IMG/VR virus record: IMGVR_UViG_3300017764_004456
Coordinates: 1 to 39,845 of that record
Strand: one strand, 5' to 3'
Length of the DNA: 39,845 nt
Origin: a virus
In this document: piece by piece, positions 26,840 to 39,845 of the stretch
Position numbering within the stretch: the stretch's first letter is position 1
Layout: every line of letters begins with the position of its first letter
Program-made: the position numbers and the translations under genes
Notes under the pieces: generated by a model
Told to the model about the DNA's origin: nothing
Database searches by the model: none
Seen by the model: the letters and a program-made list of their open reading frames with translations, nothing else

Positions 26840-29263
26840 ATGGTAGATGATAACACTTTAGTTTCTGTTATTCTTCTAACTGAAGATGCTGTAGATGATG
26901 ATGTATTTAACACTTTCAAAAATATCACCGAACAGACACATAAGAATGTTGATATTATTATCTCTACATTTAGAGAAGATCTTGATGATATCAAAGATAG
27001 GTGTGCAGAATTACATTTAGATGTAAGGTGGGCACAACAATCTGCCGGTGGAGATTTTATCGCAGAGCTGATAGATTTAGCAGACGGTGAATTAATTTTC
27101 TACAAAACAGTAAACAACTGCTTGTGGTATCCTCGCCACATTACATCTCACATTGAAAGCTTTAACAGAGATAAGGGAACCAAGTGGGCGTTGTCTCATG
27201 TAGAGAACAGAAATGTTGATCAACATGATAGCCCATTTAATACTTTAAGTTTTAGGATTGATAATCCCCCGCACCCCGATAAGATTACATTAGATGAAAT
27301 TTGTCATTATAAATCTTTACCTGTGGATTGGGCTATTTGTTTAGTTCAAAAGAATGATATCGCTTTGTTTTATCCCGGCTATGCCGTAAAGTATTGGATT
27401 GAACAAAATCACAGAGGAACAATACCCTCTGAAATTACAGTGATTCAATGGATTAAGCCAGATGGAACAGGCCCGAACGATAAAGAATTAGAAGATTTCT
27501 ATCAGCAAGTAGGTGTTCCACAAAGCACTGAGATTAAAGAAGAGCCAATTGAGACAGAAGACGGAATTGAAATTAGAAGAGTGTTGCCAACGGTTGTAGG
27601 TAACAGACATTTTAAAGAGTATACCGATAGTATATTAGAAGTCATTAATCAAACGGAAGATGTAACCAGTATTGCACTTAAGCGGTCTATCGGTATGGGT
27701 GATGTTGTCGTAGCAGAACCTATTGTTAGAAAACTCAAGCAAAAGTATCCCAACGCAAAACTAACCTTTTATTCTGCGAAACCAGATGTTATTAAATACT
27801 TTGAAACACAGCCCGATGAAGTTATTCAAATAGATGAAAATGATGTAGTTAAAGATACTCTGTTTAATGTAGAGAGTGAAGTAAAGTTTGATTTAGATTT
27901 ATCCTATGAATCAAGAGAAGAAACTTCTTTTATTGATGCGTATGCTCAAGTTGTTGACGTTGAGTTTGATAGTGAAGAAGATAAGTATGTATCTTTAGTG
28001 TGTGATGAAGAACCATTAGTTAAAGAAAAGTATGTGGTTGTTTGTGGAGATGGATCTGGTTGGCCTGGCAAAAGTTGGGATATGGAAAAATATGCTGAAG
28101 TAATTAAGTATATAAAAACTATGGGATACAAGGTATACGAAACTGGCGCTTCTCATACAGAAGAAAGTGAAAACGAATATCATAGTTGTGAGTTTAATGA
28201 GATGGTTAATCTTATTGCTAACTGTGAGTTCTATGTAGGTACTGATAACGGCCCGATGCATGTCGCGAGAGGTTTTAAGAAACCTTGTTTTATTATCGCT
28301 GGCGCAGCACTACCTTATTATAGTAACCCGTATAGAGAAAATATTTTTTACATTCAAGACAGCACCCATCCTGGCGTTGGTATAAAACATAAGCAGTTTT
28401 TTAATCTTACCGATCAAGGTTTGACCTTTATGCCATATTATCCCGATGAACCTAGCTGTGGTTTGAATAACATTTACCCTAAACATGTAATAGACGCTAT
28501 TAATAAATTCTTTAGTAAACCTTTAAGTATTGTTGATAATAGTGAATGTAATTTTCTTTTTAACGTATCGGGTAATTTAGTAATGAGGGATGTGTTGCCA
28601 GGGTTCGCTTACTATAAGAGTAACGACACCGGTGTAGTGCAAAGAGAAAACCCTTATTACCACCCCGATCAAAGATTAGATATTAGTCAAGTATATGCGA
28701 ACGATAAGCAAAATATTTGGGTAAACAACTTTACACCTATGATTAAAGATTGGCGTAACAACAAAGGCGAAAAACTTAAGATTTTAGATGTAGGCTGTAA
28801 CATGGGTATTTTGGTAGAAGGTGCATCTAATGAAGGTTTTGATATTAGGGGGTTAGATATCAATCGCCTAAGTATAAAAGCCGGCCAAGACCAATGGCCG
28901 AAGGTAAGAGAGCTATTAACGGTGGAAGATTTTACCCAACCACAAACAGAAGAAAAGGTATACGACGTTGTGGTGTTAAGCGATATTCTTAGTCATGTAG
29001 GTAATCCAGTAAAACTAATTGAAAATGCTTTACAGGTGTTGAAAGATGATGGGTTTATCTATATTAACATTGTTAACTTTGGCTGTGACAAGGCAAGAAA
29101 AGATTTTCATAAGTGGGATGGTATTGGCGTTGGAGAAAACATTACTCTGTTTGATAGAGATAGTTTCACTAAGTTTACTGATAGGTTTGGTTTAGATTGT
29201 GTTGATTATCGAGAAGATGAAGAAGACGAAATGATTTTTGTTCGTTGCACAAAGAGAGGTTAA
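26840..29263 (+). CDS. Three-domain protein: GT2-like, GT9 heptosyltransferase-like, methyltransferase
   Basis: Three units are visible in 807 aa. Residues 1-230 resemble a family 2 glycosyltransferase (LVSVILLTEDAVDDDVFNTF start), but where DxD is expected the sequence reads FYKTVNNCLW, so the metal site seems lost. Residues ~275-530 resemble GT9 (ADP-heptose:LPS heptosyltransferase): IALKRSIGMGDVVVAEPIVR at 278 and VGTDNGPMHVARGF at 463, both family landmarks. Residues ~645-807 form a class I SAM methyltransferase (LKILDVGCNMGILVEGAS, motif I near 648; YDVVVLSDILSHVGNP; and FIYINIVNFG). A single polypeptide could transfer a sugar and methylate it. No membrane segment is seen. The fusion and the degenerate first domain are unusual. 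Confidence 0.72.
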   Translation: MVDDNTLVSVILLTEDAVDDDVFNTFKNITEQTHKNVDIIISTFREDLDDIKDRCAELHLDVRWAQQSAGGDFIAELIDLADGELIFYKTVNNCLWYPRHITSHIESFNRDKGTKWALSHVENRNVDQHDSPFNTLSFRIDNPPHPDKITLDEICHYKSLPVDWAICLVQKNDIALFYPGYAVKYWIEQNHRGTIPSEITVIQWIKPDGTGPNDKELEDFYQQVGVPQSTEIKEEPIETEDGIEIRRVLPTVVGNRHFKEYTDSILEVINQTEDVTSIALKRSIGMGDVVVAEPIVRKLKQKYPNAKLTFYSAKPDVIKYFETQPDEVIQIDENDVVKDTLFNVESEVKFDLDLSYESREETSFIDAYAQVVDVEFDSEEDKYVSLVCDEEPLVKEKYVVVCGDGSGWPGKSWDMEKYAEVIKYIKTMGYKVYETGASHTEESENEYHSCEFNEMVNLIANCEFYVGTDNGPMHVARGFKKPCFIIAGAALPYYSNPYRENIFYIQDSTHPGVGIKHKQFFNLTDQGLTFMPYYPDEPSCGLNNIYPKHVIDAINKFFSKPLSIVDNSECNFLFNVSGNLVMRDVLPGFAYYKSNDTGVVQRENPYYHPDQRLDISQVYANDKQNIWVNNFTPMIKDWRNNKGEKLKILDVGCNMGILVEGASNEGFDIRGLDINRLSIKAGQDQWPKVRELLTVEDFTQPQTEEKVYDVVVLSDILSHVGNPVKLIENALQVLKDDGFIYINIVNFGCDKARKDFHKWDGIGVGENITLFDRDSFTKFTDRFGLDCVDYREDEEDEMIFVRCTKRG

Positions 29264-29264
29264 T

Positions 29265-29714
29265 ATGACCGTTGGATATTTGTTAGACCTGTTAATTATT
29301 AATGAAGTAAGAAAAGAAAAATTAGCTGATACTTTAGAATTGGATGTAGTGCATGATCTAAATAAACAAAATGGTTTTTTACTAAAAGAAATTGGTAGGT
29401 ATCTTATAGAGGTTGCCGATGGAAAAAGGCCAGGCATTTTTTCTAAACATAAAAATTATGATGAGGGCGTAGGTGAAAAAGAAAATCCTAATTTTATAAA
29501 GGTGTTATATAATCTATATCTGCGTCATTCAGAACTATGGGATTTAGAAGATGAACGTAGAGATACAGAAAATAAAGGCGATAATGAAAGATTATATGCT
29601 GCCGATAGAGTTTCTATTGTTAATAAGAAAAGAAACGATTTAGTTGAGCAGATAGATAAGATAGTTAATACTGACTTAAAGAAAATGAAAATATGGGGTA
29701 GTTTAGTAGAATGA
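29265..29714 (+). CDS. DUF4254-like small helical protein
   Basis: 149 aa from ATG 29265; GAGAGG seven to twelve bases upstream supports this start over in-frame codons further left, which would run back into the previous gene. The helical protein contains NFIKVLYNLYLRHSELWDLE (near 76-95) and YAADRVSIVNKKRNDLVEQI (111-130). These match the DUF4254 pattern of L-W-x-L-E-D followed by a basic I-x-x-x-N-x-x-R-N-D-L-I/V-E-x-I-D helix, a family found beside heptosyltransferases and LPS genes in bacteria. Its biochemical role is not known to me. Its stop overlaps the next start by four bases (ATGA). Confidence 0.6.
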   Translation: MTVGYLLDLLIINEVRKEKLADTLELDVVHDLNKQNGFLLKEIGRYLIEVADGKRPGIFSKHKNYDEGVGEKENPNFIKVLYNLYLRHSELWDLEDERRDTENKGDNERLYAADRVSIVNKKRNDLVEQIDKIVNTDLKKMKIWGSLVE

Positions 29715-30643
29715 AAAAGGTATTAATAAGTGGTGCCGATGGGCAACTTGTAACAGACATAATTAAAACTTTATCTAACCCCGAAAACGATATGCTTTTT
29801 AATGTATTGGCTTTCAATAGAAAAAAATTGGATGTTACACATAAAGAAGCGTTAGAGGTAGAATTTAAGAAAAACAATCCCGATTTCTTTATACAGGGTG
29901 CAAGCTACCATGTAGTAGAAGAAATAAATAAAAACCCTAAAGAAGCTTGTGATGTTAATATCGCCTCTCTTCATTATTTAACTGATTTATGTAATGAGTA
30001 TGATTGTACTCTTATTAATTTTTCTACTAATTATGTGTTTAATGGGATGGCAGTACCGTGGGAAGAGTTTCATGGAGCCGGTCATTACAGTGAGATGGAT
30101 GAACCATACCCTATTAATTTGTATGGTATTCTTAAGTATGCTGGCGAACAAGTTATTTCTACTAGTTGTGAAAAATATTACAATATCAGAGTAAGCGGTT
30201 TGTTTGGAAAAACTGGAAGTCGTGCTAAAAATGGTTCTAACTTTCCCTATACAATCAAAAATAATTTAGAAATAAATGATAGAGCAGATCATCTTGAGCC
30301 TGTTAAAGTAGTAAACGATCAACTTGTTAATGTAGGGTATACGGTAGATTTGGCCGAGATCATCGTAAAGATGATGCGCGATGAAAATGAAAATCTTCAT
30401 GGATTATACCATTTAGCTAACAAGGGCGAGTGTACTTGGTATGATGTGGCTTGTAAAGTTGCCAAAGTGTTAGGGTATAATAGAGATAGAATAATTCCAA
30501 TCACTTCTGATGAGTTTTATAGTAATCTTAAAAGACCTAAAGACACAACCCTCAATATGTGGAAAGTAGAAAGTAGGTTTGGATTAACGATACCACAATG
30601 GGAAGATGCAATAGAAAGGTTTTTTAGAGATGAGGTTTTGTAA
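29711..30643 (+). CDS. RmlD-like NDP-sugar 4-keto reductase (SDR family)
   Basis: At 310 aa it matches the length of dTDP-4-dehydrorhamnose reductase (about 290-300 aa) and follows its layout: MKKVLISGADGQL (NAD(P)-binding loop, G8, G11), NFSTNYVFNG (103-112; usually STDYVFDG), YGILK (Y138, K142 catalytic pair, then GEQ), RVSGLFG and VNDQLVNVGYTVDLAEII. RmlD reduces the 4-keto group of dTDP-4-keto-sugars in deoxysugar synthesis. One oddity is that the third Gly of GxxGQLG is Val14, and Asp of STD is Asn107, so substrate or cofactor may differ. It is coupled to the genes on either side (4-base and 1-base overlaps). The exact substrate is inferred only. Confidence 0.72.
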   Translation: MKKVLISGADGQLVTDIIKTLSNPENDMLFNVLAFNRKKLDVTHKEALEVEFKKNNPDFFIQGASYHVVEEINKNPKEACDVNIASLHYLTDLCNEYDCTLINFSTNYVFNGMAVPWEEFHGAGHYSEMDEPYPINLYGILKYAGEQVISTSCEKYYNIRVSGLFGKTGSRAKNGSNFPYTIKNNLEINDRADHLEPVKVVNDQLVNVGYTVDLAEIIVKMMRDENENLHGLYHLANKGECTWYDVACKVAKVLGYNRDRIIPITSDEFYSNLKRPKDTTLNMWKVESRFGLTIPQWEDAIERFFRDEVL

Positions 30644-31208: not shown

Positions 31209-31655
31209 ATGATTAGATGGTGTATGGATCTTGACAACACTCTTGTAAAAACGAATGGTAGTGATTATAAAAATAGCACACCTATTCCAAAAGCAATAGA
31301 GAAGGTAAGACGATATAAGGAACGGGGTGATCATATTATAATTATGACAGCCCGTGGAGCAGGTAGTAAAACGGATTGGAGAGAGTTCACAGAAAAACAA
31401 TTAAACGATTTTGGTATTCCTTATGATCAATTGATTGTAGGGTTAAAGCCTGGCGGTGTTGATGTTTTTGTAGATGATAAAGCAATTAATGCACTTGATT
31501 GGTTAGCAGATGAAGAAAAAGCTTTAAGTAGAATAGAGACAAAAGAGCATTACAAAAATGTTCAAATCTTTGATCCATTTTTTCCTTACGCTCAAAAAGT
31601 TTTTGATGAGCTTGGGATTGACCCAAACGAACACCTTAAAAGAGGAGATGACTAA
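31209..31655 (+). CDS. HAD-superfamily phosphatase, capsule-biosynthesis subtype
   Basis: 148 aa. Motif I is CMDLDNTLV (catalytic Asp7, Asp9), motif II is HIIIMTARGAG (Thr47), motif III Lys80 occurs in VGLKPGGVD, and motif IV is FVDDKAINAL (Asp89, Asp90). The K-P-x-x-V-D-x-x-x-DDKA ending matches small HAD phosphatases of capsular-polysaccharide clusters, which dephosphorylate sugar phosphates during nucleotide-sugar synthesis. No cap domain is visible. The C-terminal ~40 residues (KEHYKNVQIFDPFFPYAQKV) are an extra. AAGGATAATTGAC precedes the start. It could be the phosphatase step of a heptose-type pathway together with the nucleotidyltransferase downstream, but no isomerase or kinase is in the window. 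Confidence 0.75.
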   Translation: MIRWCMDLDNTLVKTNGSDYKNSTPIPKAIEKVRRYKERGDHIIIMTARGAGSKTDWREFTEKQLNDFGIPYDQLIVGLKPGGVDVFVDDKAINALDWLADEEKALSRIETKEHYKNVQIFDPFFPYAQKVFDELGIDPNEHLKRGDD

Positions 31656-32236
31656 TGTCACAGCCAGCACAAGAAATGAAACACGGTGGAAGGTTTCACG
31701 TAGATGATAGAGGAACAAGATATTGTGATATTTTTCCAGAGATTGGTAAGGGTGATATTAATGTTACAATAGTAGAGCCAGGAGCTGCAGCGCTTTGGCA
31801 CAGGCATATGTATCAAGACGATTATCAGTTTGTTATTAAGGGTAGTTTGAAAATTGGTGTATGTAATGCGCCATATATGGGCGGTGATGATTTAGAAGAA
31901 TTTGGAATGTCAGAAGAAGATGCGGCTAATGTTTATGAACAAAGAGAAGAGTTATTAACTAATTGGAAAGAGTTGAAAGAAGCTGATCGACTAAGCTCAC
32001 AACAACTACAACAATGGCCTGTTGATGAGGGTAAAGTAGAGTGGCATTATCTTTCTGAAAGAACCGCGAAAGACGGGCCTCTGTTCATTCCTCGTTTTTT
32101 ATGGCACGGCTGTTATAACTATACCAACGAACCAGCTATACTTATCTATCATGTCACCAACAAATATACCGGTGAAGATGAAGATAGATTAGATCCTTTT
32201 ATTGCCGGTTGGAACTATGAAAGAGTTGTAAAGTAA
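31655..32236 (+). CDS. RmlC-like cupin (sugar epimerase or ketoisomerase)
   Basis: 193 aa forming one cupin barrel: IVEPGAAALWHRHMYQDDYQ (39-58, metal/substrate His49 and His51), FVIKGSLKIGV, then a helical insertion (about 75-135, rich in Glu and Gln), and FIPRFLWHGCYNYTNEPAI (145-162, His151) before YTGEDEDRLDPF, which recalls the RmlC ending. RmlC (dTDP-4-dehydrorhamnose 3,5-epimerase) acts on the product that RmlD reduces, so the pair with the gene at 29711 fits. The 60-residue insertion and the altered motif around the first His (H-x-H instead of the RmlC R-G-L-H) make a ketoisomerase or a simple sugar-binding cupin equally possible. Confidence 0.6.
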   Translation: MSQPAQEMKHGGRFHVDDRGTRYCDIFPEIGKGDINVTIVEPGAAALWHRHMYQDDYQFVIKGSLKIGVCNAPYMGGDDLEEFGMSEEDAANVYEQREELLTNWKELKEADRLSSQQLQQWPVDEGKVEWHYLSERTAKDGPLFIPRFLWHGCYNYTNEPAILIYHVTNKYTGEDEDRLDPFIAGWNYERVVK

Positions 32237-33276
32237 TGGTAGATAATTTTGTTAGTGGCAATGTCGATCCACAAGGTGAAGTTTATTTAGTTACTGGTTC
32301 ACATGGTCATATTGGTAGTTATATCGTTGAAGAGTTAGCTAAGCAAAAAGATGATATTACTATTTTATGTGTGGATAATCTATACAATGGTGATGTAGGT
32401 AATCTAAAAGAAGCTTATTCTATTGCTGACAATAAGAATGTAAGAATAATCCCTATCGTTGCGGATGTTAGCGTTGAAGATGTAATGAGAGAAATATTCT
32501 CAAAACATAAGCCTAATTATGTTTTCCATACTGCATCATACCTTACTTTAGATTCTAACAAATATAAAAGTAGAAGTGTTAAGGTAAATGTATACGCTAG
32601 TGCATTGTTGTTTGAATTGTGTTTAGAGTTTGGAGTAAAGAAGGTAGTCTATAGTTCTTCTGCTTCGGTATATGGAACTCCCGAAATAACCCCTACAACA
32701 GAGGATTATCCGTTTGATGATTGTAAATTATTATATGGAACATCTAAGGTTGCGTTAGAATATATTGCAAAATCCTTTATGGAGTTTGGATTAGATATTG
32801 TCGGCCTCCGTTATTTTAATGTTTATGGTCCGAGACAAAGTTTATCTAATGTATATACACAGATTGTTCCTAAGTGGGTTAACGCTATAGCTACTGGAGG
32901 AACTATTACAATATACGGTGACGGTAAACAAACAATGGATATGATTTTTGGTGGAGACATAGGTAGGGCTAATATAGCAGCTATGGAAAACACTGAGTGT
33001 AAAAATATTTTTATAAATGTCGGCACCGGCCATGAAACATCAGTTAAAGAATTATTTTATTTGATTTCTAGTAGGATGGAAAGTTTGTTGGATAATCCTA
33101 AGATTAATGTGGAGTATGAAGAGCATGACCCTAATCTTGTAAGAAGAAGATGTGCTAGTGTTACACAGATGCACAAATATTTAGGTAAAAATCAAGTAAG
33201 TATTGATCAAGGTATTGACATAACTTGTAAAGAATTATACCGCCGATCAACTGAATGGCAACCACATAACGGATAA
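32236..33276 (+). CDS. GalE-like NAD-dependent sugar epimerase/dehydratase (extended SDR)
   Basis: 346 aa with all extended-SDR landmarks: VYLVTGSHGHIGSYIVEEL (NAD-binding G21, G24, G27), ADVSVED at the adenine pocket, VVYSSSASVYG (Ser141-143 region), YGTSK (Tyr167, Lys171 catalytic pair) and LRYFNVYGPRQS, then IYGDGKQTMDMI. These match UDP-glucose 4-epimerase and related nucleotide-sugar epimerases or dehydratases; the FNVYGPRQ motif is the specificity-linked part. It overlaps both neighbours by one base at TAATG junctions on its left, so it is part of the coupled cassette. Whether it is a 4-epimerase, a 4,6-dehydratase or an ADP-heptose epimerase-like enzyme cannot be decided. Confidence 0.78.
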   Translation: MVDNFVSGNVDPQGEVYLVTGSHGHIGSYIVEELAKQKDDITILCVDNLYNGDVGNLKEAYSIADNKNVRIIPIVADVSVEDVMREIFSKHKPNYVFHTASYLTLDSNKYKSRSVKVNVYASALLFELCLEFGVKKVVYSSSASVYGTPEITPTTEDYPFDDCKLLYGTSKVALEYIAKSFMEFGLDIVGLRYFNVYGPRQSLSNVYTQIVPKWVNAIATGGTITIYGDGKQTMDMIFGGDIGRANIAAMENTECKNIFINVGTGHETSVKELFYLISSRMESLLDNPKINVEYEEHDPNLVRRRCASVTQMHKYLGKNQVSIDQGIDITCKELYRRSTEWQPHNG

Positions 33277-33281
33277 TTAAA

Positions 33282-33797
33282 ATGTCTTGGTATGATAAAA
33301 TTTATGATGTAAAAGATTTTGATATTCAAGGAGGCATTTTTACAAATGGTTGTTTTGACATCATACATAAGGGTCATATAGAGTTATTTCAATTTTGTCA
33401 TAATTATCGTGCCCGAAAAGGTTTTACTTTAGATAATTGGCATAGTAAGATTATAGTTGGTGTTAATAGTGATTCTTCTATTAAAAAGTTAAAAGGTAAT
33501 GATCGCCCCATAATAGATCAAGATAACAGATTATCTATTTTGAACGCTATAAGTTTTATTGACTATATTGTGTTGTTCGACACTGAAAGCGTTCTCCCTC
33601 TAATACAAAAAATAAAACCTAAAGTGTTAGTAAAGGGTGGCAATTATAACACCAAACCTTGCGCAATACAAGAGCAAATAGTAGGTCAAGAGTTTGTGGA
33701 AAGTTATGGCGGCGAGGTAATAACCGCACCTATGGTAGAAGGTTTATCTACCACTAATATTGTAGAAAAAATATCAAGGAATAATCATGTTATATAA
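33282..33797 (+). CDS. HldE/RfaE C-domain-like sugar nucleotidyltransferase
   Basis: 171 aa that fits the adenylyltransferase half of HldE (RfaE2): GIFTNGCFDIIHKGHIELFQ (18-37, H29-K-G-H32 nucleotidyltransferase motif), IIVGVNSDSSIKKLKG (57-72), NDRPIIDQDNRLSIL, FIDYIVLFDTES, PKVLVKGGNY (113-122) and GLSTTNIVEKI near the end. HldE-C joins a nucleotide to heptose-1-phosphate to give ADP- (or a related) heptose. The neighbouring HAD phosphatase and two GT9 domains fit that chemistry. A small insertion (ARKGFTLDNWH, 44-54) lies after the first helix. It overlaps the FkbM gene by eleven bases. Glycerol-3-phosphate cytidylyltransferase (TagD) shares the H-x-G-H fold and is the alternative, but the STT and KGG motifs favour HldE. 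Confidence 0.8.
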   Translation: MSWYDKIYDVKDFDIQGGIFTNGCFDIIHKGHIELFQFCHNYRARKGFTLDNWHSKIIVGVNSDSSIKKLKGNDRPIIDQDNRLSILNAISFIDYIVLFDTESVLPLIQKIKPKVLVKGGNYNTKPCAIQEQIVGQEFVESYGGEVITAPMVEGLSTTNIVEKISRNNHVI

Positions 33798-34659
33798 TAT
33801 ACAAGATAAATTAAAAATAAATTTACCTACTCGTCATGCAGATAAAGTTGATGCTTACAATGAAGAATGGGATAAAGAAAACGGTCAAGGTTGGGAGTTA
33901 AGGAACTTTATTGAATTAACTAAAGGTAGAAAAAGTCTTTATGATGTTGGAGGCAATGTAGGTTTTTTTTCGTATGTATTTTGTTTGAATAATAATGACG
34001 ATAAGACGAAAAGAGCATACTGTTTTGAACCATCACCCGAAGGTCTTACTAATGCTGTAGAGATTGTTAACCATAACGATTGGTTTGATCGTATCAAACT
34101 TTTTCCCATGTTTATCGGTGATAAGAATGGAGTTGTAAGTATCCTTACTGAAAAGTCGGGTACTTTTGTTGTTAGATATGAAAAGGAAGATCCTAACTTT
34201 AAGATAGTAAAAAATAAAGACAATGTAACCAACGATGTAGCTAGTAGGATAGCTACCATTGATGACTTCACTTGGATAGCAGAGATGGGTAATGAAGACA
34301 AAAAATATGGGTTAGATATGGTCTTTGAAGATAAAAAAGAAAGAAAGAATAAAGATTATCCCGGCTTTAATAATGGCTTTGACTTAGATACTTTAAAGAT
34401 TGATGTAGAGGGTTATGAGCAAAGAGTGTTAAAGGGTGCTAAGGAAACAATAATGAAATATAGGCCATTAATTTTTTTAGAAATCCATTCACATTTATTA
34501 AAGTTATACAACAATGATGTTTTTGAAATATATAATACTTTAGAGAAATATGGGTATAAAATTTTCGATATCCATATGGATGAAATAAAAAATAAACAAC
34601 AGTATGAAAGTTTGTTCGGTGCTAAGAATGAAATAAGGGTTGTTTGTAAAGGAGATTAG
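33787..34659 (+). CDS. FkbM-family SAM-dependent methyltransferase
   Basis: 290 aa. Motif I is LYDVGGNVGFFSYVF (51-65). An acidic motif CFEPSPEGLTNA (79-90) binds the SAM ribose. Near 204-225 comes LKIDVEGYEQRVLKGAKETI and then LIFLEIHSH. The K-I-D-V-E-G-x-E-x-x-V-L-x-G-A block is the FkbM fingerprint. FkbM-type enzymes O-methylate sugars and polyketide hydroxyls and are common in surface-polysaccharide clusters. The first 35 residues are charged and not part of the fold. It overlaps the nucleotidyltransferase by eleven bases, indicating coupled translation. The substrate is presumably a sugar of this cassette; that is inference. Confidence 0.85.
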   Translation: MLYNIQDKLKINLPTRHADKVDAYNEEWDKENGQGWELRNFIELTKGRKSLYDVGGNVGFFSYVFCLNNNDDKTKRAYCFEPSPEGLTNAVEIVNHNDWFDRIKLFPMFIGDKNGVVSILTEKSGTFVVRYEKEDPNFKIVKNKDNVTNDVASRIATIDDFTWIAEMGNEDKKYGLDMVFEDKKERKNKDYPGFNNGFDLDTLKIDVEGYEQRVLKGAKETIMKYRPLIFLEIHSHLLKLYNNDVFEIYNTLEKYGYKIFDIHMDEIKNKQQYESLFGAKNEIRVVCKGD

Positions 34660-34660
34660 A

Positions 34661-35059
34661 ATGCACGAATATCAGGCAAACTTGATAAAAATAGTTGATG
34701 GTGATACTTTAGACGCAGACATAGATTTAGGGTTCTCTGTGTGGGTAAGAAAACGCGTTCGGTTGGTAAATATTGACACATGGGAAAGCAGAACAAGAGA
34801 CAAGGAAGAAAAGAAGCGTGGATTAGCTGCAAAAGCACGATTGAAGGAATTGATCAAAGAAAACAAAAATCAATTTATCTTGATTTCACATGGTCTTGGT
34901 AAGTTTGGTAGAGTGCTTGGAGAAATACTTTTAGATGACGATAGGAATGTAAATGATATTTTGATAGAAGAAGGCCACGCTTATGAATATCATGGCGGAA
35001 ATAAAGAAGAAGCCAGAGCAAAAGCTCAAGCCATCTTATCTGAAAGAAACAAATATTAA
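34661..35059 (+). CDS. SNase-like nuclease (thermonuclease family)
   Basis: 132 aa beginning at ATG 34661, chosen because AAAGGAG (34648-34654) stands seven bases upstream. The protein is a near-minimal staphylococcal nuclease fold: YQANLIKIVDGDTLDADIDL (Asp15 equivalent to SNase Asp21), RVRLVNIDTWES (Arg34, Asp39, Thr40, Glu42 corresponding to Arg35, Asp40, Thr41, Glu43) and KFGRVLGEIL (Arg84 for Arg87). All catalytic and calcium-binding positions are present, so activity is expected. No signal peptide is seen; it would act inside the cell. A nuclease amid sugar genes is out of place; degradation of host or rival nucleic acid is a plausible role, unproven. Confidence 0.88.
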   Translation: MHEYQANLIKIVDGDTLDADIDLGFSVWVRKRVRLVNIDTWESRTRDKEEKKRGLAAKARLKELIKENKNQFILISHGLGKFGRVLGEILLDDDRNVNDILIEEGHAYEYHGGNKEEARAKAQAILSERNKY

Positions 35060-35060
35060 A

Positions 35061-35732
35061 ATGGAGTTAAATATATCTGAATACCATATTCGTAATGTAA
35101 GCCCCGATGAATATGGGATAAAAAGACCACACTACTCTGTATTATTATCTCACCTATCAACATACTTTAATGACTCTATAATTGTTGATTTAGGAACACG
35201 CGATGGAGACAGCGCAGTTGCTTTAGCTTATAATAAAACTAATCGTATATACACTTATGATATTTCTCATAGTGCAGATGCTGCAGAAAAATTTGACAAC
35301 TTTGATAATATTAAGTATATTATAGGTAATTGTTTAGAGTCTAATTGGAACGGAATGACTTTGGATGATGATATACCGAGAAAGGTATATTTTTCAAGTA
35401 TAGGTGATAAAACTGATATAAAGGGTAATCCCAAACAAGCTATAAGTGACAAGGAAATATTTTTATCAAGCAAACTTATATTTCTTGATGTTGACCCACA
35501 CGATGGTTTACAAGAAAAAATAGTATCAGACTTTTTAATTGAGAACGATTGGAGAGGGGTAATGGTTTGCGATGATATTGGCACTGGCAGGGAAGTGGAA
35601 AACAGCCACCCAGATATGTTAGCATGGTGGAATAGTATTGATGTAAGAAAGTATAATATTGCAGATAGCATATACTCTGCCGGTACAGGCACTGGTATCA
35701 TCTGTTTTGATAATCAAAAGGTTATAATTTAA
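35061..35732 (+). CDS. SAM-dependent methyltransferase-like protein
   Basis: 223 aa from ATG 35061, one base after the nuclease stop; an alternative ATG (34983) would overlap the nuclease by 77 bases and add an unstructured Lys-rich leader, so I prefer 35061. The region 40-60 (IIVDLGTRDGDSAVALAYN) is SAM motif I, IYTYDIS provides the strand-2 acid, LIFLDVDPHDGLQEKIV (near 142) resembles motif IV, and GVMVCDDIG follows. The pattern resembles Methyltransf_24 enzymes and the two others in this window. There is no strong ribosome-binding site, which suggests coupling with the nuclease gene. Its C-terminus (SIYSAGTGTGIICFDNQKVI) ends as a beta strand. Likely substrate: a glycan or nucleotide sugar. 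Confidence 0.62.
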   Translation: MELNISEYHIRNVSPDEYGIKRPHYSVLLSHLSTYFNDSIIVDLGTRDGDSAVALAYNKTNRIYTYDISHSADAAEKFDNFDNIKYIIGNCLESNWNGMTLDDDIPRKVYFSSIGDKTDIKGNPKQAISDKEIFLSSKLIFLDVDPHDGLQEKIVSDFLIENDWRGVMVCDDIGTGREVENSHPDMLAWWNSIDVRKYNIADSIYSAGTGTGIICFDNQKVII

Positions 35733-38482
35733 TGAAGACATTTCATATACTACAGTTAGCAGGGTATGGTGATACTTTATCAGCTATTACAAGATTACCT
35801 GCTTTAAAAGAAAAATATCCCGACTATAAAATTAAATTTTGGTTAGGTGGTTTTGGTAAGTCACCACAATTTTCTAAAGAGCAATTAGAGAGAGAAGGTT
35901 ACGAAGCTGCTCTAATTAAAAATCTAACTTTTCATAATCAACTGGCATCTATGCGTGACTTCTTATTGAACAAGGTCGTAAAGCCAGATGATAAGTTTGA
36001 AGATTGGTCATTTTGTGAAGAGATATTTGATAATAAAAAACCTCACTTTGCACCTTACGATATGCAGTTTCCTTATGAGTATAAGACGGGTGAGCCATCA
36101 TATCACGTAGAAGATATAGTTAAATGCGTTAAAGAAAAGAATGGCGTAGCTATTCACCCATTAACCAAAGATGGTAATGCAGAAGGTTTTGAAAGTGATG
36201 TAAACAATGGTAGGTTTTGGAAGAAAGAGTTTTGGCAAGAGATTTGTGAGCTATTGAATGAAAAAGGTTTAACGCCAACATTTGTTGGTATCAATGATGA
36301 GGATTGGGGATTAAGAGAATATTGTGATAGGCGACGGATAGACTATATTGATGCTATGGGTGTTGATATAGAAAACACTATTCATATACTTAAAAATGTG
36401 TCGGGATGTATTGCATGTAATTCATGGGATTGGGAAGTTACCAGTCGCCTTAATATTCCTACTGTTGTATTTTACACTAAGAATCATTTCTTTATTCAGA
36501 ACCATACACCCCCAACTAATCACCCATTTTGGAATACTTGTTACATAGAAACAAATTGTGTTCAAACCAAAGTAGCCACAATACCTGCAGGTGATTCAAG
36601 TTTAGCCGGTAGAATAATGAAGGGGCAAGAAGAACCGTCTGAAATCTTTGATAAGTTTTTCTACTTATATGAAAACAACAAAAGACCAGATACAAAATAT
36701 TCTGTTTGTATGATTACGTATAACGATGAAGAATGTGTAAGAGATACAATGGAAAATGTCACACCATATATAACAGATGATTTTGTAATTACGGATGGTG
36801 GGTCAATAGATAAAACGATAAGTATTATAGAGGAGTATAATGCTAATCTTATTCATAGAAAATGGGATGATAATTTTGAAATTCAAAAAAATAATTCACT
36901 GGATGCAGCAAATCAAGAATGGCGAATTTGGATTGATGCTGATGAAACCTATGAGCCGATATTTTGGAATCAACTATGTTGGTATATCAGAGATGCAAAT
37001 AATCGTGGGGTTGATTGTATTAATGTACCACGTATTAACACAGTAGAAGGTATAACTCAAGAATTTGCTGATCAACAAGCTTGGAATTTAAGTTATTTTA
37101 ATTGGGTTAATTATCCCGACTATCAACAAAGGGTTTTCAAATCCCACTGTAGGTTTGCTGGCAGAACCCATGAAAGAATTATCAATGTTAAAAAAGATGC
37201 AGCTATTGTTGGTGTTCATTGTAATCACCCAAAAACATTAGAGAGACAAAAAGCTGGTATTAAACGAGAACAAGATCAATATAAGATGACAGCTCAACAG
37301 GTTAAGAAAAATATAAACCTTGCTTTTAATAAAAAACTTGTTGTTCACTATCTTCATCATTTAGGTATTGGCGGAACAGCCAAGGTTGTGCAGATTTTAT
37401 GTAAATACTTTAAGAAGATGGATAAGGATTTTCATCATGTGTTGGCATACAAGGCACACGGTGAGTTAGAAAGAGAACCATTCTTTGAGGAAATTCTTGG
37501 TAGAGAAAATCTAATACCATATGCATCAGTTCCAGAGTTTTACGAAGTTATTAAAGAGATAAAACCGTTTATAATGCATCGTCAAACATCTGGTCAACCA
37601 GAAATGCCGTTTGTTCCACCTATAGTTGAACAATGTAAACACGTAATATCTACCTCTATATTTGGTCACGTAGATGAAAGTATTAATCTAAGTAGAGCTA
37701 TATATATCTCTAACAATATGCAACATTGTGCAGGTGTGTTTAATCATAATACAAGATTGATAGCCATTCCTGTAGAAGCCCCACTTACCAATGAAGACTT
37801 ACGAGAAGAATTAGATATACCTCAAGACGCTTTTGTATTTGGTCGCTTAGGAAGAGATGATAATGATATTTATGACCCTATTAATCTTGTTTCGTTCGCA
37901 CAGTTAGAAGATGATAGTTTATATTTTGTAGCTTTATCTCCGTCAGAAACTCTGAAAAGAAAAGCTGAAAGTTTAGGTATAACTAATATTCGTTATGTTG
38001 ATAAGACCTTAGATGACGTTAGAATCAGCAAGTTCTACAACACACTAAATGTACTAGCTCATAGTAGGAAAGACGGTGAGTGTAACCCTGGCAACATTTG
38101 GGAGGGTTTCTCACACGGTAAGCCAGTCGTGAGTCATTATGGTATACCTTACAATGGTCATATACAAGAAATTGGTAACTGTGGTTTTGTTGTTAATAGA
38201 AAAGATAACTTTCATAATGTGTGGCAAGATTTAAACCCATCTAGTATTGTAGATATCTTAGAGTATTCACGTAGTATAGGTGTTGCTAATTTTACCTGTG
38301 AAGATAGCACTAATTCTATTAAGAACGACCAAGATGAGTATACGAGAATTATGAGGGCGTTTGCAGATGGAACAATAGATTACAATACAATGAGTAAGAA
38401 TTGTGTTAGTAGATGGGAAAGACAAGCTAAGCCAGAAGTTATTACTCAACAACATTTAGATTTATATAAAGAACTATCATAA
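35732..38482 (+). CDS. Three-domain glycosyltransferase: GT9-like, GT2, GT4
   Basis: In 916 aa three transferases follow each other. Residues 1-310 resemble GT9: FHILQLAGYGDTLSAITRLP (3-22) and, near 220, NTIHILKNVSGCIACNSWDW, the usual site of the terminal acceptor-side motif, here without the typical GxDxGPxH. Residues ~322-490 are a GT2 domain with YSVCMITYNDEECVRDTMEN, VITDGGSIDKT and WIDADETYEP (D402-A-D404), which gives a complete metal-binding DxD. Residues ~535-916 are GT4-like: VHYLHHLGIGGTAKVVQILC at about 538 and the ExxxxxxxE motif in ECNPGNIWEGFSHGKPVVSH (about 786). The chain could build a multi-sugar chain alone. It begins in a TAATG junction. Confidence 0.78.
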   Translation: MKTFHILQLAGYGDTLSAITRLPALKEKYPDYKIKFWLGGFGKSPQFSKEQLEREGYEAALIKNLTFHNQLASMRDFLLNKVVKPDDKFEDWSFCEEIFDNKKPHFAPYDMQFPYEYKTGEPSYHVEDIVKCVKEKNGVAIHPLTKDGNAEGFESDVNNGRFWKKEFWQEICELLNEKGLTPTFVGINDEDWGLREYCDRRRIDYIDAMGVDIENTIHILKNVSGCIACNSWDWEVTSRLNIPTVVFYTKNHFFIQNHTPPTNHPFWNTCYIETNCVQTKVATIPAGDSSLAGRIMKGQEEPSEIFDKFFYLYENNKRPDTKYSVCMITYNDEECVRDTMENVTPYITDDFVITDGGSIDKTISIIEEYNANLIHRKWDDNFEIQKNNSLDAANQEWRIWIDADETYEPIFWNQLCWYIRDANNRGVDCINVPRINTVEGITQEFADQQAWNLSYFNWVNYPDYQQRVFKSHCRFAGRTHERIINVKKDAAIVGVHCNHPKTLERQKAGIKREQDQYKMTAQQVKKNINLAFNKKLVVHYLHHLGIGGTAKVVQILCKYFKKMDKDFHHVLAYKAHGELEREPFFEEILGRENLIPYASVPEFYEVIKEIKPFIMHRQTSGQPEMPFVPPIVEQCKHVISTSIFGHVDESINLSRAIYISNNMQHCAGVFNHNTRLIAIPVEAPLTNEDLREELDIPQDAFVFGRLGRDDNDIYDPINLVSFAQLEDDSLYFVALSPSETLKRKAESLGITNIRYVDKTLDDVRISKFYNTLNVLAHSRKDGECNPGNIWEGFSHGKPVVSHYGIPYNGHIQEIGNCGFVVNRKDNFHNVWQDLNPSSIVDILEYSRSIGVANFTCEDSTNSIKNDQDEYTRIMRAFADGTIDYNTMSKNCVSRWERQAKPEVITQQHLDLYKELS

Positions 38483-38506: not shown

Positions 38507-39373
38507 ATGTTTGACCCAAAAGATGTGCATGTAATACTTATTGGATGCCAACGAACCCAAGACTATCGACACAACCTTGAGATTATGAGGTATAACTATC
38601 CAGACATAGGCACTAAGTTATGGGTTACCACAGTCTTTAATGGTGATCAAAATCACTGCCCATCTGGTATAGGAGAAAACACTTTTATATATCTGCCTGA
38701 AAATACAGGTTATGGATATGGAGCTTTAGATTCTTTTAATGCAGGTTTGGATTTTGCACGTTGTGGATATAGACCTTATGTAGCTATATTTAATTTTGAT
38801 GTTTGGTTTCTGACACAAAATGGTTTTAGAACAGCTATGAATGATTTTATTGAAAGTGGTAAACAATTTGCAGCAGGTTATCACCAAACTCATCATTGGG
38901 CTATGACAGATTGTATGTTTTTCCGAAGAGAGTTTTTAGAAAAACTATTACCCATACAAGATAAGGTTTTGAATAGTCGTAAAGAGAATGGTTGGCTTAA
39001 GAATGAAATGAGTGGCACTCAGCTTGGATTTGAAAATATGGAAGAGTGGATGCTTTATTCTTTAAATCGTGCAGTAAGTGATGGTGAACCCCGTGCTATT
39101 GTAGATAATAAAACAAACGATGATCTTATGAATAATCTTGACCCTAAGATTATAGATGTTTGGTTTCAAATGGAAAGGGATGGTCACCCAAGATATAGAT
39201 ATACAGAAAAATATAAACTTATCCATGAACATGATGACGATGTTAAAAAGAAATTGTTAAAGGATAACAACGCCACCAAGGGGCATAACATCTGTAAATA
39301 TTTAGGTGTGAAGATACCACATAAAGTTTTGAATGATGTTCGTCAACCAGATGGTTCAACAATGGCAATATAA
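38507..39373 (+). CDS. GT-A-like glycosyltransferase-like protein
   Basis: 288 aa from ATG 38507, fixed by AAAGGAG (38495-38501). Residues 60-85 (IYLPENTGYGYGALDSFNAG) have the P-E-N-x-G-Y-G-x-G style of GT2 transferases at the nucleotide-sugar pocket, and AIFNFDVWFL (93-102) occupies the place of the DxD strand, with F-D-V in place of DxD. Residues 115-175 hold QFAAGYHQTHHWAMTDCMFF and an MEEW segment, plausible for an acceptor site. The C-terminus (YTEKYKLIHEHDDDVKKKLL) is a charged helix. I call a small GT-A enzyme or a close relative; the altered metal motif leaves activity in doubt. It follows the giant transferase and ends in a TAATG junction with the next gene. Confidence 0.55.
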   Translation: MFDPKDVHVILIGCQRTQDYRHNLEIMRYNYPDIGTKLWVTTVFNGDQNHCPSGIGENTFIYLPENTGYGYGALDSFNAGLDFARCGYRPYVAIFNFDVWFLTQNGFRTAMNDFIESGKQFAAGYHQTHHWAMTDCMFFRREFLEKLLPIQDKVLNSRKENGWLKNEMSGTQLGFENMEEWMLYSLNRAVSDGEPRAIVDNKTNDDLMNNLDPKIIDVWFQMERDGHPRYRYTEKYKLIHEHDDDVKKKLLKDNNATKGHNICKYLGVKIPHKVLNDVRQPDGSTMAI

Positions 39374-39845
39374 TGCTACGATCAATATCTTCACTATCAT
39401 TACAGACATCTGATATATCAAGAAGAAAGCCAATTGTGATTCACCATCATAATCAGCTTACGATGGGTGGCACAGAAAAGATGAGTCAAATATTTTGTAG
39501 ACACTTTGTAAAAGATAATACTTTTGAACATTATGTAGCTTATAAAAAAGGCGTAGAAAACACAAGAGAGCCTTACTTTAAAGAAATAGTAGGGTCGGAG
39601 AAAATGCTATGTTACGAGTCTCCTTCAGAGTTGTTAAACATCATAAAAGAAAAGAAGCCGTTTATATTGCACAGATATTCGGCTGGTATACCCGAATTTC
39701 CTTTCGTGAAAGAAATAAAAGAGCATACTCGCCATTTTGTTTCAACTGCCGTATTTGGTAATCAAGATAATACGATTGATATAAGTAAGGTTATTTATGT
39801 ATCAAAACATATACAATGGTTAGCAGGTACTCAAGATACAAAGAA
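39373..39845 (+). CDS. GT4-like glycosyltransferase, N-terminal part, truncated by the window end
   Basis: The frame opens at ATG 39373 (TAATG junction with the upstream stop) and runs without a stop to the edge, at least 157 codons. After a short leader it reads VIHHHNQLTMGGTEKMSQIF, FEHYVAYKKGVENTREPYF, LLNIIKEKKPFILHRYSAGI and HFVSTAVFGNQDNTIDISKV. Every block aligns with the start of the GT4 domain in the 916-aa protein (VHYLHHLGIGGTAK, KPFIMHRQTSGQPEMPFV, HVISTSIFGHVDESINLS), so it is a paralogue. The C-terminal donor-binding half and its E-x7-E motif lie beyond the window. Confidence 0.75.
   Translation, partial: MLRSISSLSLQTSDISRRKPIVIHHHNQLTMGGTEKMSQIFCRHFVKDNTFEHYVAYKKGVENTREPYFKEIVGSEKMLCYESPSELLNIIKEKKPFILHRYSAGIPEFPFVKEIKEHTRHFVSTAVFGNQDNTIDISKVIYVSKHIQWLAGTQDTK

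Follow-up and report, generated by a model that had tools for sequence, protein, structure and literature searches.

Does this marine phage carry the genes to make and use a heptose-type activated sugar of its own? The question arises from IMG/VR record IMGVR_UViG_3300017764_004456, a viral genome fragment of 39,845 nt that was analysed over its entire length (the window); it stems from a marine phage and has baseplate wedge homology at about 7.4-9.3 kb. A sequence-only reading had noticed an HldE-C-like nucleotidyltransferase (NTase), a HAD phosphatase and an extended SDR within 2.6 kb and had interpreted these as the last steps of NDP-heptose synthesis and use. All three are present as intact reading frames at 33282-33797, 31209-31655 and 32236-33276, respectively. 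On balance, we consider it probable that they are part of a glycan module with which the phage makes a nucleotide-activated sugar, most likely of the heptose type, and puts it to use. A phage able to produce rare activated sugars of its own can give virions or the host surface a new coat.

The sugar genes of the window

The sugar genes form one longer run, entirely on the plus strand, in the order GT9/methyltransferase (26840-29263), DUF4254, RmlD, methyltransferase, HAD, cupin, SDR, NTase, FkbM, nuclease-like gene and 916-aa glycosyltransferase. The DUF4254-like protein, which had been spotted before, is indeed nearby (29268-29714; PF14063 30.5 bits, cut-off 27) and precedes the gene of an RmlD-like nucleotide-sugar 4-keto reductase (29711-30643; RmlD_sub_bind E 3e-62; TIGR01214 191.5 bits, cut-off 224), a synteny that is kept in the relatives G017, G018 and G019. 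The FkbM-type methyltransferase (33787-34659; Methyltransf_21 E 6.7e-13) is followed by the nuclease-like gene, judged by eye to be of the staphylococcal-nuclease type. Of a GT4 glycosyltransferase the window holds the start (39373-39843); the complete copy in the sister contig G002 has 362 aa.

Domains of GT9, a heptosyltransferase family, had been proposed for both giant transferases. This is correct for the 807-aa protein (26840-29263), a fusion of GT9 (Glyco_transf_9 E 1.1e-12, residues about 381-503) and a SAM methyltransferase (Methyltransf_23 E 1.4e-17, residues 644-788), with an N-terminal region that is GT2-like in appearance and has no Pfam match; a single-protein search, sensitive to close relatives alone, returned relatives from a sister contig only. 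The 916-aa fused protein (35732-38482) consists of a weakly GT9-like N-terminus, a GT2 centre (Glycos_transf_2 E 5.7e-13) and a GT4-like C-terminus that resembles the GT4 of G002. Its GT9 part stays below threshold (PF01075: no Pfam match; homologue 13 bits, E 0.065; hhalign 51% probability), and because of this weak match the proposal is just half shown.

The HAD protein (31209-31655, 148 aa) is, as far as its sequence tells, EcbF/BcbF-like, with a weak match to this capsule phosphatase subfamily (TIGR01689, EcbF-BcbF, 56.5 bits, E 2.5e-15, cut-off 162). Its catalytic set DxDxT...T...K...D is complete (D7/D9/T11/T47/K80/D90) and invariant across phage relatives, which adjoin or are fused to HxGH NTases. 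An identity as GmhB was rejected: no GmhB model of Pfam or NCBIfam matched, and hhalign with E. coli GmhB matched only 47 columns (54% probability). The protein is a candidate heptose-1,7-bisphosphate phosphatase.

The extended SDR (32236-33276, 346 aa; Epimerase E 2.1e-43) is GalE-like: scores for GalE, LegB and HldD are nearly equal and all far under the cut-offs. Where HldD has REGHKG, the SDR reads RQSLSN, without the catalytic lysine (K178 of E. coli HldD). As the scores are below every cut-off and the HldD lysine is missing, the label of a heptose epimerase is not justified, and HldD ADP-heptose 6-epimerase was discarded as an assignment. Between HAD and SDR sits a gene that the sequence-only reading had passed over; it encodes a metal-cupin-like protein (31655-32236, 193 aa; Cupin_2 25.4 bits, cut-off 27.2) with WHRH and LWHG strictly conserved in four relatives. 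The cupin has no Pfam match above cut-off and no PDB relative at E<0.1, and structure prediction from four sequences gave a mean pLDDT of 35.

Family placement of the nucleotidyltransferase

The NTase (33282-33797, 171 aa) matches Pfam CTP_transf_like with 53.8 bits (cut-off 21). Among the NCBIfam models, rfaE_dom_II (TIGR02199, heptose-1-phosphate adenylyltransferase domain) scores 146.1 bits and g3p_cytidyltrns (glycerol-3-phosphate) 25.5; the former value is lower than the curated cut-off of 181.5, which is likewise true for the NTase of cyanophage P-SSM2 (106 bits). Of the HMMs built in this study, that of bacterial HldC gives 162 bits, that of the phage NTases found alongside GHMP kinases (GHMP-type) 48 and that of the TagD-type 43. 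The top match of a PDB sequence search was the cytidylyltransferase-like chain 5x9q.

The motifs HxGH, KGG and STT that had been read from the sequence are all found (HKGH, VKGG, STT). Five substrate motifs of HldC have been defined (PMC7993394), and of these five plus STT the NTase retains five out of six: TNG, NSD, KG, KGG and STT. The exception is ExTP, which is replaced by T101-S103-V104, with T and P being near-invariant in the other aligned sequences; the weight of this change is uncertain, because the X residue contacts the substrate via its backbone in a docking model (PMC7993394). In a tree of 117 rows the NTase is placed with bacterial HldC and with phage NTases linked to PfkB at a support of 86, which is modest because alignment columns are few; in the AU test, alternative positions have p 0.17-0.20 and none is formally rejected. 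The closest bacterial relatives are HldE/HldC with 40-49% identity; many of them are adjoined by gmhA, gmhB or hldD and several are in gmhA-gmhB-hldD operons, in a search that is biased if taken alone because it was seeded with a TNG-type pattern.

Scores, motifs and the best tree thus support a grouping with HldC/HldE-C, as the sequence-only reading had it; an identity as a cytidylyltransferase for glycerol- or ethanolamine-phosphate was rejected because of scores and motifs, albeit without formal rejection in the AU test. With HldC/HldE-C the NTase shares HxGH and the five retained motifs; it differs in standing alone in the phage, in having T-S-V for ExTP and two inserts, in having no adjoining HldA-type kinase and in its score below the curated cut-off. 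The two inserts are short (residues about 46-55 and 125-130) and missing in most aligned HldC relatives; the second is the least confident region of an otherwise confident AlphaFold model with a mean pLDDT of 89.5.

It could be argued that NTase and HAD activate another phosphorylated sugar or a polyol, such as one linked to CDP, and that the likeness to heptose enzymes is a family likeness only. This would fit the scores of both proteins under the curated cut-offs, the altered ExTP, an SDR that is not HldD and the membership of the HAD in the capsule EcbF group. However, the preference for the HldC over the TagD-type HMM (162 versus 43 bits), the retention of TNG, NSD, KG, KGG and STT and the position of the closest bacterial relatives in heptose operons (with the seeded search in mind) all argue against it, and we regard this explanation as improbable.

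Isomerase and kinase genes in sister contigs

GmhA and the heptose kinase (HldA/HddA) had been noted as absent from the window, and searches found neither of them there. The suggestion that the phage carries them elsewhere agrees with two sister contigs, G001 and G002, which match the window at ~94.5% nucleotide identity across the entire overlap and extend past it with GT4, a third SDR (SDR3), a GHMP kinase and a SIS isomerase. By offset from G002, the kinase is at about 41.8-42.8 kb and the isomerase at about 42.8-43.4 kb, 2-4 kb beyond the window's end. The top curated model of the GHMP kinase is, by far, HddA (153 bits, cut-off 600), and its closest solved structures include heptose-7-P kinases. 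The SIS protein has GmhA as top model (62 bits, cut-off 209) and keeps the GNGGS loop and the catalytic histidine of GmhA; the position of E. coli E65 is D. All assignments are under the curated equivalog cut-offs (NTase 146/181.5, HAD 56.5/162, GHMP 153/600, SIS 62/209).

From the presence of these genes, their family placement, their conserved catalytic motifs and their linkage in the sister contigs we infer substrates, nucleotide, step order and acceptor of the module as follows. Sedoheptulose-7-phosphate would be isomerised by the GmhA-like SIS protein, encoded past the window in the sister contigs, and the HddA-like GHMP kinase would phosphorylate the isomerised sugar at C1. The second phosphate would be taken off by the EcbF-like HAD (31209-31655), leaving a sugar-1-phosphate that the HldC-type NTase (33282-33797) would join to a nucleotide. 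Remodelling of the sugar may fall to SDRs, RmlD and cupin; its transfer to an acceptor on the phage or on the host surface would be the task of the giant glycosyltransferases, of which at least one has a GT9 domain. Of the last NDP-heptose steps proposed earlier, the NTase family stands and is joined by the linked isomerase and kinase; the SDR as epimerase and the HAD as GmhB proper do not stand. The weakest step is the link from GHMP to HldC, because HldC-type NTases pair with PfkB in other phages.

Two relatives speak against a heptose module. The syntenic relative G017 has the order DUF4254-RmlD-HAD-methyltransferase-cupin-SDR-GT-GT4-SDR-GHMP-SIS and lacks, at that place, the block NTase-FkbM-nuclease-orf249 (window 33282-35732). 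The 84-kb relative G018 has, like G019, kept the GHMP kinase and is without a sugar NTase of the HldC- or GHMP-type. G016, from the same sample as G017, has homologues of the NTase (57% identity) and of the nuclease located together, and its HldC-type NTase (158 bits) and GHMP-type NTase (174 bits) are about 2 kb apart. G016 has a few genes in common with the end of G018, so it is possible that G016 and G017 come from a single genome. Judged from gene order, the block looks as if it were a movable cassette.

Pairing of kinase and NTase in phages

Viral contigs were scanned with NTase, HAD and GHMP kinase, yielding at least 80 loci each. Among the matches listed, an HxGH-class NTase is present within 300 bp of the HAD at 37 of 80 HAD loci and 28 of the 80 are HAD::NTase fusions, counts that are not frequencies in nature because loci were picked by likeness to the queries; this proximity and the fusions support a joint action of the two enzymes. 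Such sugar-activation modules are common in phages.

For 164 non-redundant phage NTases, a kinase was sought within 6 kb. NTases of the GHMP-type clade (SH-aLRT 99, no HldC motifs) have a GHMP kinase in 50 cases and PfkB alone in none, and HldC-type NTases have PfkB in 85 cases and GHMP alone in one (51 bits), a pairing that arises partly by construction, since GHMP-linked rows served to build the model of the GHMP-type. HldC-type NTases thus go with PfkB and GHMP kinases with another NTase clade, a testable rule with an apparent exception: the phage of the window, whose HldC-type NTase with a GHMP kinase is an unusual pairing, against the survey pattern. Across the window and its sister contigs, about 59 kb in all, neither a PfkB kinase nor a GHMP-type NTase was found.

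An HddA-like GHMP kinase normally belongs to the alpha/GDP route and an HldC-type NTase to the beta/ADP route. The fact that the known GHMP route produces the alpha anomer (and uses HddC) and the HldC route takes the beta anomer (PMC7993394) argues against a single route, and the pairing seen here reflects a hybrid route or else fragments of two pathways. The latter is the main rival to the heptose-type module: two kits would adjoin, with the HldC-type NTase using a PfkB kinase from elsewhere in phage or host, and with GHMP kinase and SIS isomerase serving another sugar, together with a GHMP-type NTase of their own that would lie beyond the known contigs. The survey counts (50, 85 and only 1), the two NTase types of G016 and the absence of the NTase block from G017 at this place all point in this direction, and so do four contigs (L211, L213, L219, L228) with both kits back to back, PfkB-NTase-cupin and then GHMP-SIS-HAD::NTase-SDR. 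On the other hand, the about 59 kb contain neither PfkB nor a GHMP-type NTase, the latter is also absent from the 84-kb and 64-kb relatives, and G016 and G017 may be separate genomes; we take two adjoining kits to be a possibility that deserves serious consideration, if not a likely one. A hybrid NDP-heptose route, with the HddA-like GHMP kinase feeding the HldC-type NTase and the EcbF-type phosphatase replacing GmhB, can be put forward tentatively and seems rather unlikely; it would mean that anomer or nucleotide specificity has changed in one of the two enzymes. The enzymes of these cassettes could show how the choice of anomer and nucleotide is set.

The kind of cassette that we favour for the window, a heptose-type module, is already known: cyanophages P-SSM2 (PSSM2_309-313), P-TIM68 and S-SM2 share its gene families, with HldC-type NTase, EcbF-like HAD, cupin and SDR clustered as in the window; in P-SSM2, HldC-type NTase, HldA-like kinase, the same kind of HAD, a small cupin and an epimerase are side by side. 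The cyanophage cassettes differ in having a PfkB/HldA-like kinase, whereas the sister contigs of the window have a GHMP kinase, and in their cupin, which is smaller and of a different family. The phage cassette GHMP-SIS-(HAD::NTase)-SDR (SynMITS9220M01, L196-L228) shares GHMP kinase, SIS isomerase, EcbF-like HAD and an HxGH-class NTase with the window phage, but its NTase is of the other clade. In these cassettes lie the fusions of HAD and HxGH-class NTase in a single protein (L196, L197, L200-L228 and SynMITS9220M01_206, L022:16052-16804). The HddA/HddC (GDP-heptose) route is matched by the GmhA-like and HddA-like proteins of the sister contigs; in contrast, no HddC-type guanylyltransferase was found here, the NTase is of the unrelated HxGH type and the HAD is not GmhB.

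A literature search on viral ADP-heptose genes found none; gmhA and genes for heptose kinase/adenylyltransferase in phages are mentioned just in passing (PMC9238414, PMC11671562, PMC9611531). PSSM2_311 of P-SSM2 (L020:13098-13442; phrog_1238) is labelled 'phosphoheptose isomerase', yet has no SIS domain: PSSM2_311 and phrog_1238 match the EcbF/BT0820 HAD phosphatases and are homologous to the HAD of the window. The label is misplaced on this cyanophage HAD family, and mislabelled EcbF-like HAD proteins of this kind may have entered gmhA counts for marine phages. The 'cysteine dioxygenase' beside PSSM2_311 is a small cupin.
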